NCBI GenBank assembly: GCA_030148805.1
Contig: JASBSS010000035.1
Coordinates: forward strand, 372,001-436,000
DNA: 64,000 nucleotides
Direction of reading: 5' to 3'
Origin: Thiogranum sp.
GTDB taxonomy: Bacteria > Pseudomonadota > Gammaproteobacteria > DSM-19610
The notes beneath the pieces were generated by a model. The model did not search any database and had not been told where the DNA came from. It saw only the letters and a list, made by a program, of their open reading frames with translations. Shown piece by piece: positions 60,401 to 64,000 of this stretch; the first letter of the stretch is position 1; each line of letters begins with the position of its first letter. Made by a program: the position numbers and the translations under genes.

Positions 60401-60628
60401 GATATGCTGGCGAGCGGCCAGGATGCGATCATCGTGCGCTCGATCATCGCGCTGGCGCACAATCTGAACCTGCGGGTGGTGGCCGAAGGCGTGGAGGATG
60501 CCGCGGCCCTGCAGAGCCTGCGGGAGATGCACTGCGACCTGGCGCAGGGGTATTACATCGGTCGGCCCGCGCCCTGTGACGCGGTGACCCGCTGGCTGCA
60601 GGACCCGGATGGATGGGCCGCCTGCTAA
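57425..60628 (+). CDS. GAF-PAS-PAS-GAF-GGDEF-EAL cyclic-di-GMP protein
   Basis: This 1067-residue cytoplasmic signalling protein has no membrane segments. By position: GAF (about 20-180), PAS with PAC (190-325), PAS with PAC (335-455), GAF (485-630), GGDEF (640-800) and EAL (815-1055). The cyclase motif is intact (LGGDEF near residue 717), but the RxxD inhibitory site expected just upstream is replaced by VHNS, so product inhibition at that site is unlikely. The EAL part keeps FEALVRW, the ETA motif, IAIDDFGTGYSSLAYL, LKIDRVFV and VAEGVED, so phosphodiesterase activity is plausible. Net activity is not predictable. The signals for the two GAF and two PAS domains are unknown; no heme or flavin signature was recognised. 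Confidence 0.93.
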   Translation: MSGKEKAPGSTAEVSLHQAYLELAQDWSLWESPLAGAVSAIVESVSHSLNVQRVGLWLLSDDDTSLELLDLFERDSGAHNSGVRLACTNYPSYFSALRTGRVIAARDARGDPRTREFSETYLAANGIDALLDATLRKAGKFAGVLCVEHVGGQRLWNEQEKRYIVSVADLLMQRLIYEDTRRSEIYYRELSRLQQAVFDSATYSIITTDVQGTVVSLNRAAVRLLGYAPHELVGRHRLDRLHEPQEIRRRAAALAERHGLACETAMEVLTACARRGIVEEHEWTYVRKDGGRFPVLLSLTALRGDDGAISGFVAIASDISEQRKARRALLEEEARYRALFERSGDGTFLVRQDRFIDCNKATLQMFGCTREQILQQTPYRYSPALQPDGRCSREKAKEKINAALGGETQLFEWRHQRHDGTLFDAEVMLSLIEIQSEPHLLATVRDVSNRKQAELELDRSRQELMDRNESLRLINELSTRLHACTAPAATVEETMNTLMNMSRKPQVAIYLVDEEKKQLRLAGCRGFRPATRIAGETLSLTESLNGRALAKGCLVVSPDLANDTRVSAGLKTRLIEEGFRSAILLPLVYNGKALGCVNLVYLERCAFSEMEVETLEAIGKAVSVSLANTQHMAEMEYLAHHDTLTGLPNRAILHREFARRGIQGGDAVAALMLLDLDRFKEVNDTLGHYVGDTLLRNIGPRLAPVLAVHNSLLCRLGGDEFTVLVGGVLSRAQLAGLAQALLDALREPFPIDNMMLELDASIGIAIFPAHGDDSHALLRSADVAMYEAKRKGGGLAFYDREQDQHSPQRLAIMSELGTAVRQRQLCLHYQPKVDLASGRIAGFEALVRWRHPQQGLLYPDAFIPIAELSDVIHQVSHQVLDLALEQQKQWCDQGCEFSVAVNLSARNLIDDRCYHLVLELLQEHRVAADMLELEITETALMLDPEGAVKLLRRIADLGVKIAIDDFGTGYSSLAYLRRLPIDALKIDRVFVRDMLASGQDAIIVRSIIALAHNLNLRVVAEGVEDAAALQSLREMHCDLAQGYYIGRPAPCDAVTRWLQDPDGWAAC

Positions 60629-60653
60629 GGCCCCGGCGCTTGCCTCGAAACAG

Positions 60654-60694
60654 TTTTACAAATTTATACAAATATTATACAAAAATTGTATAAT
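60654..60694 (+). promoter_or_regulatory. CarH/LitR-type operator overlapping a sigma-70 promoter
   Basis: Three TnTACA direct repeats have TACA at 60657, 60667 and 60678, so they are spaced 10 and 11 bp. The last is part of a perfect 9-bp inverted repeat, ATTATACAA (60674-60682), AAA spacer, TTGTATAAT (60686-60694). The right arm contains a perfect -10, TATAAT (60689-60694), with TATACA (60665-60670) as a possible -35 at 18 bp. B12-dependent CarH/LitR regulators are known to bind about 11-bp direct repeats with a TnTACA core over the promoter and to release in light. A CarH-type gene is encoded 2.5 kb away. The downstream leader runs about 100 nt to the ATG at 60801. Confidence 0.75.
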
Positions 60695-60800
60695 AGGTCT
60701 GGAGACACTGGGGAGGTCGCCTGGGGAGTGCCTGCTCCAGCCGCTCCCCGATGAATCATATTAATTGATTTAATGGAGATTATTCCTTAGGAGGCACGAG

Positions 60801-61763
60801 ATGGAGGACTTGTCGGTGGAAACGGCTCCGCGGGTGGGTGTCAGCGCGTGTCTGCTGGGGGCGCCGGTACGCTTCGACGGCGGCCATAAGCGCAATCCCT
60901 TCATTGACGAACAACTGCGGCGGTATGTCGATTTTGTTCCTTTTTGTCCCGAAACCGAGATTGGCCTGAGCACGCCGCGCCAGCCGATCCGTCTGGTGAG
61001 TCGCGCCGGCGTGGTACGCGCCGTGGGCAGCCGCGATCCGGCGCTCGATGTCACCGCGGCGCTGCAGGCCTGCGCCCGCGAGGCCGCCGGCCGTCTCGAC
61101 GATCTGTGCGCGTTCATCTTCAAAAAAGGCTCGCCGAGTTGCGGCCTGCAGCGGGTGCGCGTCTATCCGGAGAACGGCATTGCGCGTACCGACGGCACCG
61201 GATTGTTCGCCGAGCAGATTATGCGCGCACAGCCGCTGCTGCCGGTCGAGGAGGAAGGGCGCCTCAACGATCCGGTGCTGAGGGAGAATTTCGTCGCCCG
61301 GATGTTCGTTTACGCACGCTGGCGCGCCACCCTCAAGGCGGGCCTGAGCAAGTCGGCCTTGCTGGCCTTCCACGCGCGGCACAAGTTGCAGATCCTGGCG
61401 CACGGCACGGTGGGTTATCGCCAGCTGGGGCGCCTGTTGGCCGATCTCAAGGCCGCGCCGCTGGAGGCGCTCGCCGCGCGCTACATTGAAACGCTCATGC
61501 GATTGTTGCAGCAGCCGGCCACGCGCCGGCAGCATACCAACGTGCTGCAGCACATCGCGGGTTATCTGCGCCGGGACGCGGACACGCATTATCGGAGTGA
61601 CCTGCAAAGCGCCATCGAAGGCTACCGCCAGCATCAGTTCCCGTTGATCGTGCCGGTGCGTCTGTTGCAGCACCAGTTTCAGCGTCACCCCCATCCCTAT
61701 ATCGAGCAGCAGGTCTACCTCAGGCCCTACCCGCAGGACCTGCGGTTGCGCAACGCGATCTAA
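60801..61763 (+). CDS. DUF523-DUF1722 protein of a light-response locus
   Basis: This 320-residue cytoplasmic protein has an N-terminal DUF523 domain (about residues 10-150) with conserved cysteines in GVSACLLGAPVRFDGGHKRN, VPFCPETEIGLSTPRQPIRLV and FIFKKGSPSCGLQRV, and a C-terminal DUF1722 domain (about 190-310; SALLAFHARHKLQILAHG). The biochemical role is unknown; the cysteines could bind a metal or an iron-sulfur cluster. This two-domain protein is often encoded beside photolyase and B12-binding MerR genes. It has a strong AGGAGG site, and the CarH-type operator lies upstream. Its stop codon interlocks with that of the convergent photolyase gene. Confidence 0.88.
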   Translation: MEDLSVETAPRVGVSACLLGAPVRFDGGHKRNPFIDEQLRRYVDFVPFCPETEIGLSTPRQPIRLVSRAGVVRAVGSRDPALDVTAALQACAREAAGRLDDLCAFIFKKGSPSCGLQRVRVYPENGIARTDGTGLFAEQIMRAQPLLPVEEEGRLNDPVLRENFVARMFVYARWRATLKAGLSKSALLAFHARHKLQILAHGTVGYRQLGRLLADLKAAPLEALAARYIETLMRLLQQPATRRQHTNVLQHIAGYLRRDADTHYRSDLQSAIEGYRQHQFPLIVPVRLLQHQFQRHPHPYIEQQVYLRPYPQDLRLRNAI

Positions 61764-63217
61764 TCCTCGCCCCGCCGGGCCTGTTGTTTCATCTGCTTCC
61801 AGGCCGACAGGGCCCGTTTACGGCTGCTGTCCAGGCTGACGATGGGTAGCGGATAGTTGGTGCCGAGGTAGATGCCGGCCCCACTCAACACCGGTGCCGG
61901 CGCCAGCCAGGGCTGGTGAATCCATTTGCCGGGCAGCTTGCGCAGCTGGGGAACCCAGCGGCGCACGTAACTGCCGTCGGCGTCGAAGCGTTTGCCCTGT
62001 GTGACCGGATTGAAGATGCGGAAAAAAGGCGCGGCGTCGGCTCCGCAGCCGGCGCTCCACTGCCAGCCGAAACTGTTGTTGGCGAGGTCGGCGTCGACCA
62101 GGGTGTCGAGGAACCACGCGGCGCCCTGCTGCCAGGGTATCAACAGGTTTTTGCTCAAGATCGAGGCAACCAGCATGCGCACCCGGTTGTGCATCCAGCC
62201 GCTGGTCCAGAGTTGGCGCATGCCGGCGTCGATGATCGGGATGCCGGTGTTTCCCTGCTGCCAGGCGCGCAAGTCCTCGGCATAGTCGTCGCGCCACGGA
62301 AACCCCACGTAGCGGGTGTCCATGGGCGCGTCGGCGGTCTGCGGAAAGTGGAACAGCAAATGGTGGGCGAACTCGCGCCAGGCGATTTCGCGCAGGAAGG
62401 CCTCGGCCGCGGCGACGACGCCGGGGGAGCGTTCCTGCTCCACCCAGGCCTGAACCCGTTGCCAGATCTGGATGGCGGAGATTTCGCCAAAGTGCAGATG
62501 CGGGGACAAACGCGAGGTACCGGTTGCCGCCGGGAGGTCACGCGCGGTGGCGTAATCGGCGAGCCGCTGATCCAGGAAGGTTTCCAGTTGCCGCCAGGCG
62601 GATTCTTCGCCGGGTTGCCAGTGCTGGTGGAATTCGCTGTCCCAGCCGACGCGCGGTAGCAGTCGCAGGCTCTGCAGCGGTTGTGCCGCCGGCAGATTGA
62701 CCTCCGGCGCCGGAAGTCGACCCGCCCCGGCAAACACCTCGCGCGCCGGCCCCAGTCTTTGGAGCGTTTTCCAGAAAGGTGTGAACACCCGATAGGGCGA
62801 TCCGTCCACTTTGCCCACCTGCGCCGGCTCGCGCAGCAGCGAGGCGCTGAAGCTTTCCGCGCGCAAGCCGGTATCAGCCAGTTCCCTGCGCAGCTGCCGC
62901 TCGCGCTCCTGGGCCCCTGGCGCGTACGAGCGGTTCCAATACAGGGCCTGAGCCCCGCTTTGTCGGGCCGCGCGCCGCAGGGCCGCGGCGCTGTTTCCAC
63001 TCAGGACGTACAGCTCGCTGCCCGAGGCGCGCAGCCGCTGTTGCAGGGCGCCCAGGCTGTGGTGCAGCCACCAGGCACTGGCTGCGCCCCGCGCGCCGGA
63101 TTGCGGATCGTGAACATAGACCGGTACCGGGATCTGACGGCGTTTCAGCGCAACCTGCAAGGCTGGATTGTCGGCCAGCCTTAGATCGTTCTGGAACCAG
63201 ATAAGCGCGCGGCTCAA
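61760..63217 (-). CDS. phrB: Deoxyribodipyrimidine (CPD) photolyase
   Basis: This 485-residue flavoprotein repairs UV-induced cyclobutane pyrimidine dimers with blue light. The N-terminal antenna domain begins ALIWFQNDLRLADNPAL. The FAD-binding part has TGTSRLSPHLHFGEIS, EIAWREFAHHLLFHFP, GIPIIDAGMRQLWTSGWMHN, and LANNSFGWQWSAGCGADAAP with the photolyase tryptophan. The start codon is TTG at 63217 with AAGGAG 8 bases upstream; no in-frame ATG fits. It lies 50 bp downstream of the CarH-like gene on the same strand, so the two are probably co-transcribed. It overlaps the DUF523-DUF1722 gene tail to tail. Confidence 0.95.
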   Translation of the reverse strand: MSRALIWFQNDLRLADNPALQVALKRRQIPVPVYVHDPQSGARGAASAWWLHHSLGALQQRLRASGSELYVLSGNSAAALRRAARQSGAQALYWNRSYAPGAQERERQLRRELADTGLRAESFSASLLREPAQVGKVDGSPYRVFTPFWKTLQRLGPAREVFAGAGRLPAPEVNLPAAQPLQSLRLLPRVGWDSEFHQHWQPGEESAWRQLETFLDQRLADYATARDLPAATGTSRLSPHLHFGEISAIQIWQRVQAWVEQERSPGVVAAAEAFLREIAWREFAHHLLFHFPQTADAPMDTRYVGFPWRDDYAEDLRAWQQGNTGIPIIDAGMRQLWTSGWMHNRVRMLVASILSKNLLIPWQQGAAWFLDTLVDADLANNSFGWQWSAGCGADAAPFFRIFNPVTQGKRFDADGSYVRRWVPQLRKLPGKWIHQPWLAPAPVLSGAGIYLGTNYPLPIVSLDSSRKRALSAWKQMKQQARRGED

Positions 63218-63267: not shown

Positions 63268-64000
63268 TCAGGTGTGCTTGAGGACCGCGGATATCTGTCG
63301 CAGGGCCTCGGACAAATCGTCTCCAGCGACGATCGCGCCAGCGTTCGCTATTGCCTCGCCGTGACGTGCCGCCAGTTCGCCACCGATGAATACGGGGATA
63401 GCGACGCTCTGCACCAGTTCCGGTAACTGCTTTTCAAGCAGTGTTCCCCCGGATTGCGCCGAACCCGACAACACTACCGCTTCGCACTGGCGGCGCGCGA
63501 GCACTGCCGGCACCTGTGTCACCGGTAGATTGGCGCCCAACAGCAGCACCCGATAGCCGTGGCTGACCGCGTTCAAGGCGAACAACAGTAGACCGAGGTC
63601 GTGATATTCGCCGGGTACGCAGGCCAGCAGCAGGCGCGGGCCATTGCCCCGCGCGTTGCTGTGGTGCACATGGCTGCCGATGCGATTGCGCAGATAGACG
63701 CTGAAGAAATGCTCCTCGGCGACCCCGGTGGCGTGGGCTTCCCAGCGCTCGCCCAGGTGACGCAGCACCGGTACCGCCAGGTTGCGGATGACGAGATCGA
63801 CGGGGTAGAGCGAAAGGGCGTCGTTGTAGGCCGAATCCAGGGCGGCCTCGTCGAAAAGTTCGATCGCGCGCAGCATGCGCGCGCGGTACTCGGGCCAGAC
63901 CCCTGCGCTCGGCGCGGCCGGAGGGCGGCGCAGCGTGCTCGTGGCGGTCTCCAGCAGGGGTTTGACCTGACCGATGGAGATTCCCTGCTCCAGCAAGGCG
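63268..64000 (-). CDS. B12-binding MerR-family regulator (CarH/LitR), N-terminus beyond window
   Basis: About 243 C-terminal residues are visible; the frame is open at base 64000. The start LEQGISIGQVKPLLE is the end of a MerR helix-turn-helix domain. A helical cobalamin-capping domain follows with the W-x9-EH motif (GERWEAHATGVAEEHFFSVYL), and then a Rossmann B12 domain with ExHxxG (VPGEYHDLGLLLF). These are the marks of CarH/LitR photoreceptors, repressors that use adenosylcobalamin and release DNA when light breaks the cobalt-carbon bond. The residue after the motif Trp is Glu, where I recall the Thermus CarH has the histidine that ligates cobalt after light exposure. It probably regulates its own operon with phrB and the operator at 60654. 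Confidence 0.88.
   Translation of the reverse strand, partial: ALLEQGISIGQVKPLLETATSTLRRPPAAPSAGVWPEYRARMLRAIELFDEAALDSAYNDALSLYPVDLVIRNLAVPVLRHLGERWEAHATGVAEEHFFSVYLRNRIGSHVHHSNARGNGPRLLLACVPGEYHDLGLLLFALNAVSHGYRVLLLGANLPVTQVPAVLARRQCEAVVLSGSAQSGGTLLEKQLPELVQSVAIPVFIGGELAARHGEAIANAGAIVAGDDLSEALRQISAVLKHT

Follow-up and report, generated by a model that had tools for sequence, protein, structure and literature searches.

Positions 60655-60694 of the window, the whole 64,000-nucleotide stretch of DNA analysed here, are predicted to hold a four-box operator of the CarH type, which lies over the sigma-70 promoter of a rudS gene and through which a neighbouring regulator would repress transcription in the dark and allow it in the light. 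We give this reading, which draws on the sequence and its comparison with relatives, a probability of about 0.82. That a CarH-type operator covers the promoter of the gene downstream had been the core of the original prediction, which finds support in the conservation of the boxes among relatives, in an 11-bp phase that goes with the class of regulator encoded next to the boxes and in the intact photosensor motifs of the protein encoded nearby. Through a B12 light sensor, rudS is probably silent in the dark and expressed in the light.

Proposed operator boxes and the rudS promoter

The array sits between a GGDEF/EAL gene, which ends at 60628, and an open reading frame starting at 60801, in an AT-rich island with 23% GC across 60640-60699 against about 65% in its flanks. 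It is made up of the following features:

60655-60660, + strand: operator box 1, TTTACA, read as AGTTTTACA, which fits the 11-bp CarH repeat nAnnTnnACAn (consensus in PMC8156234)
60665-60670, + strand: operator box 2, TATACA, doubling as candidate -35 hexamer
60674-60694, no strand: perfect 9-3-9 inverted repeat, ATTATACAA-AAA-TTGTATAAT, ending in TATAAT
60676-60681, + strand: operator box 3, TATACA, the left part of the inverted repeat
60687-60692, + strand: operator box 4, TGTATA, in 11-bp phase and overlapping the -10; counterpart of TGTACAAT/TGTATAAT in relatives
60689-60694, + strand: -10 hexamer TATAAT, overlapping box 4, 18 bp past the candidate -35

The AT-rich island, the three TnTACA words in steps of 10 and 11 bp (at 60655, 60665 and 60676) and the perfect inverted repeat with TATAAT in its right arm had all been noticed before, and were found as described. 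Absent from that earlier list was box 4, a fourth in-phase TnTAYA, which brings the steps between the boxes to 10, 11 and 11 bp and matches TGTA(C/T)A, one half of the LitR consensus in the literature (PMC9758184). The inverted repeat exists largely because TATACA is followed by TGTATA 11 bp later, and, rather than an element in its own right, is better taken as boxes 3 and 4 of the array of four. CarH operators consist of three or four 11-bp direct repeats that may overlap the -35, the -10 or both, and the array has this layout, with four direct repeats over both hexamers (PMC8156234). Boxes 1 and 2 fit the repeat consensus in full, box 3 lacks its first A, and box 4 ends in ATA rather than ACA.

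The sole sigma-70-like promoter in the region is formed by TATACA (from 60665), an 18-bp spacer and TATAAT (up to 60694), so that box 2 would be the -35 hexamer and box 4 overlaps the -10. In relatives, TGTACA is followed after 15-16 bp by TGTACAAT or TGTATAAT, an arrangement that yields spacers of 17 or 18 bp and puts the two hexamers at the outer boxes; often both hexamers lie inside boxes. With adenosylcobalamin bound in the dark, the MerR-type regulator encoded nearby would occupy the four boxes as a tetramer and exclude RNA polymerase by covering the -35 (box 2) as well as the -10 (box 4). Light would then break the Co-C bond, the tetramer would disassemble and rudS would be transcribed, and its product would strip from tRNA the 4-thiouridine that is cross-linked by near-UV and would otherwise stall growth.

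The same protein could in principle bind here as an activator, or respond to a cue other than light such as B12 level or redox. Relatives in the MerR family activate promoters whose spacers exceed 17 bp, and the 18-bp spacer, together with MerR ancestry, would permit activation; nevertheless, the boxes span the whole promoter with its -10 included, 17- and 18-bp spacers occur alike in relatives, and the characterised CarH/LitR proteins are mainly repressors, all of which makes this alternative unlikely.

RudS and the neighbouring regulator

Three genes form the locus downstream of the operator, as follows:

60801-61763, + strand: rudS, a TudS (2-thiouracil desulfurase) and DUF1722 fusion, predicted tRNA 4-thiouridine desulfidase (Pfam, residues, PDB match)
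61760-63217, - strand: DNA photolyase gene, downstream of the carH-like gene and convergent with rudS
63268-64000, - strand: C-terminal part of a class I CarH/LitR-like AdoB12 regulator; whole gene 63268-64200 (L002:5269-6201)

The removal of 4-thiouridine from tRNA by RudS was demonstrated in 2024, together with the residues essential for it (C17, C49, C114, E51, R60, S111 and S113 in RudS_KT numbering) and a proposal that bacteria erase this modification in response to light (PMC11417400). The target had first been regarded as a gene of unknown function, a description that can now be replaced: its product matches PF04463 (131.8 bits) and PF08349 (128.3 bits) of Pfam, carries all seven residues at the RudS_KT positions, both the [4Fe-4S] cysteines and the catalytic E51, R60, S111 and S113, and has TudS 6z92 (PDB) as a solved-structure relative, which identifies it as a RudS whose substrate would be tRNA. 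A Shine-Dalgarno-like AGGAGG is found shortly upstream of its start at 60801. The same genome encodes a second, more distant DUF1722 protein (L044; G000 contig 5:63554) without operator boxes, and weak-scoring DUF1722 matches similar to it also occur in G001, G003 and G014.

On the far side of the photolyase gene, where a CarH/LitR homologue had been proposed, there is indeed one with intact photosensor motifs, encoded upstream of the photolyase gene and in the same orientation. Its start and DNA-binding domain lie just beyond the end of the window, and the domain was read from the genome. Almost the entire protein can be aligned with CarH 5c8d (residues 18-272), its best solved relative. It begins with a MerR-type HTH (LRAWERRYG...RTPKGHRLY) that has MerR-family NCBIfam matches, followed by a four-helix B12-binding_2 domain (Pfam PF02607) with the W-x9-EH motif present as WEAHATGVAEEH, and by a Rossmann B12-binding domain in which E-x-H-x-x-G appears as EYHDLG in the alignment; PF02310 scores 31.0 against a cut-off of 32.1 with the window part of the regulator only. 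Against the NCBI CarH equivalog model the regulator scores 136.6 bits, below a 400-bit cut-off that is a naming threshold and not a biological feature, and for this reason we call it a class I CarH/LitR-type protein rather than a CarH equivalog.

Besides this regulator, no full-length homologue was found in the genome, and the one strict target found there is rudS. The region upstream of the CarH-like gene had been named as a further place where TnTACA arrays might lie; in this genome, no operator boxes were found upstream of either the carH-like or the photolyase gene, and several relatives do have an array before the regulator. A PduO-type cobalamin adenosyltransferase, which could make AdoCbl, is present in the genome, and the search there for one of the CobA/BtuR type found none.

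Box spacing in relatives and in the genome

We compared 136 regions with rudS, carH or photolyase genes, drawn from family, class and GTDB genomes, in which pairs of boxes (TRTACA/TGTATA) were located blind to the genes and only afterwards related to gene starts. Relatives carry TGTACA/TGTAYA boxes in steps of 11 or 20-22 bp before rudS or carH. In the 42 regions whose regulator has W-x9-EH, 34 pairs were separated by 11 bp and 20 by 20-22 bp, with only 2 at 19 bp, whereas the 25 regions with a regulator devoid of both motifs had 34 pairs at 18-19 bp and 9 at 11 bp. The same division holds for the arrays near rudS, carH or phr: among intact-motif loci, 18 had 11/22 spacing and 2 had 17-19, against 4 and 17, respectively, among motif-less class II loci (Fisher p about 6e-6, uncorrected for relatedness), the six exceptions being L061, L196, L105, L199, L202 and L208. 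In the intact-motif CarH regions, pairs at 10-12 or 20-23 bp also cluster before these genes: the 300 bp upstream of rudS, carH or phr hold 1.30 of them per kb, about 30 times the density of 0.043 per kb in the rest. The array in the window is of the 11-bp type, as the class of its regulator would predict.

Among individual relatives, TGTACA followed after 15-16 bp by TGTACAAT precedes rudS in G018, G019 and G001, and a related array does so in G002; several other rudS-bearing relatives (G004, G007 and G005) have no array before rudS at this stringency. In G316, the intergenic region between divergent carH and rudS genes (L195, 7859-7988) contains two separate arrays with 11/20-22-bp spacing, one near each gene. 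Arrays of 11/20-22 bp also lie about 700 bp upstream of rudS in L063, L173, L174 and L175, which suggests a light-controlled operon there with rudS in second place. The regulator of the near relative G014 (L049:7497-8420) is 79% identical to that of the window and has lost W-x9-EH, with both W and EH replaced; no array was found within the 15-kb region, nor a close rudS in the G014 genome (86% complete), consistent with a loss of the whole circuit.

These spacings bear directly on whether the site could belong to a class II LitR/short-LOV circuit of the Pseudomonas kind, where a MerR-type repressor without B12 leaves the sensing of light to a LOV protein. The best-studied light-controlled rudS and phr operons are of that kind, and they have similar boxes, with T(G/A)TACA-N12-TGTA(C/T)A as the published class II operator (PMC9758184). 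Class II sites, however, are 18-19 bp apart, and no pair at that distance occurs within 60655-60694, with its steps of 10, 11 and 11 bp; the local regulator, for its part, retains the two B12 domains as well as the two motifs, and no other full-length homologue was found in the genome. We therefore consider a class II circuit at this site very improbable.

The role of chance was assessed with 5000 dinucleotide-preserving shuffles of the island itself (17.6% GC). Three TnTACA words in a 10-12-bp phase appeared in none of them, and neither did four TnTAYA words at 10/11-bp steps; the 9-3-9 inverted repeat alone was seen in 11 of the 5000. Across the 3.78-Mb genome, a triple TnTACA pattern with 11-bp steps and two mismatches allowed matched solely the array at 60655-60694, and the reversed pattern, used as a control over the same genome, gave 0 matches. 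A mere AT-rich promoter with an upstream element, driving rudS constitutively and resembling a CarH operator by coincidence, has scarcely any likelihood in our view: such promoters do favour TATACA-like words, and three TnTACA in any phase turned up in 11 of the 5000 shuffles, but the phase itself never did, and the boxes are conserved before rudS and carH in relatives, with the pair enrichment given above.

An exact two-box search of the genome pointed to one further place, at contig 17:164032, where the palindrome TGTACAGACATGTACA (L211:2033-2048) lies between a redoxin-like and a TetR-like gene. We rejected this pair as a CarH operator: it forms a symmetric palindrome within the divergent region at the TetR-like gene and is probably a TetR-type operator instead.

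tRNA thiolation and known light-controlled systems

The thiolated tRNA that RudS needs is usually made by ThiI, an enzyme that could be detected neither in this genome nor in its relatives. The main weak ThiI match, considered as MnmA, was rejected under that name and corresponds to a protein that combines a ThiI-like PP-loop with an NFACT-R_2 domain (L215:1438-2529; G000 contig 30, about 144012-145103); the relatives carry such a protein as well. Out of 33 genomes tested for both, ThiI scored above the cut-off in three (G022, G027 and G180), the NFACT-R_2 domain was present in 28 others and never together with ThiI, and two genomes had neither. In ten aligned PP-loop/NFACT-R members, the motifs SGGLDS, C-x-x-C and GGCC are retained, which recall, by inference from sequence, the iron-sulfur-dependent tRNA thiolases. 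Burroughs and Aravind (2014) reportedly predicted RNA-thiolation roles for NFACT-R/ThiI fusions. RudS-bearing groups without ThiI have been noted, and a differently built ThiI was suggested for them (PMC11417400); the PP-loop/NFACT-R protein is a candidate for such an alternative 4-thiouridine synthase.

A broader and more tentative picture, to which we would give somewhat less than even odds, is that of a ThiI-less, Gammaproteobacteria-like lineage in which a B12 light sensor directly controls the de-thiolation of tRNA through rudS, perhaps its only strict target, and in which the thiolation itself is carried out by a PP-loop/NFACT-R synthase, probably iron-sulfur-dependent. If true, this would amount to a light-gated write/erase cycle for 4-thiouridine, and would explain why some species have RudS but no ThiI. 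The way in which ThiI and the PP-loop/NFACT-R protein complement each other across genomes offers a testable candidate for the missing synthase in these species. For its part, the operator would link a true B12 photosensor to rudS, beyond the class II LitR/LOV circuits, in support of the proposed light-responsive erasure of 4-thiouridine (PMC11417400). The spacing rule, with 11/22 bp for sensor-competent CarH and 18/19 bp for class II LitR, would make the kind of light sensor acting on a promoter predictable from its sequence.

With the CarH systems of Thermus thermophilus, Bacillus megaterium and Myxococcus xanthus, the locus has in common the MerR-type HTH, the B12-binding_2 domain with W-x9-EH and the Rossmann B12 domain with E-x-H-x-x-G, as well as 11-bp direct repeats over the promoter, four of them here as in the Bacillus operator. 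The best-known targets of those systems are carotenoid genes, whereas here rudS is the predicted target and no boxes precede the gene of the regulator itself. The control of rudS by LitR in the light operons of Pseudomonas has already been published, and the locus would add a B12-sensor variant of this control. In the Pseudomonas class II circuit (PplR1, PmlR2; phrB-litR-rudS operon), a light-linked repressor of the same family likewise controls rudS and a photolyase gene, and the box words T(G/A)TACA and TGTA(C/T)A are shared. Those boxes, unlike the ones in the window, are 18 bp apart, one of the two B12-binding domains is missing from the regulator, with a LOV protein sensing light, and the genes form a single operon, whereas rudS is here convergent with carH-phr. 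Finally, the RudS of P. putida (PP_0741) is the same TudS-DUF1722 fusion, with C17, C49, C114, E51, R60, S111 and S113 at the same positions, while the host lineage of the window differs in having no detected ThiI and, in its place, the ThiI-like PP-loop/NFACT-R protein.
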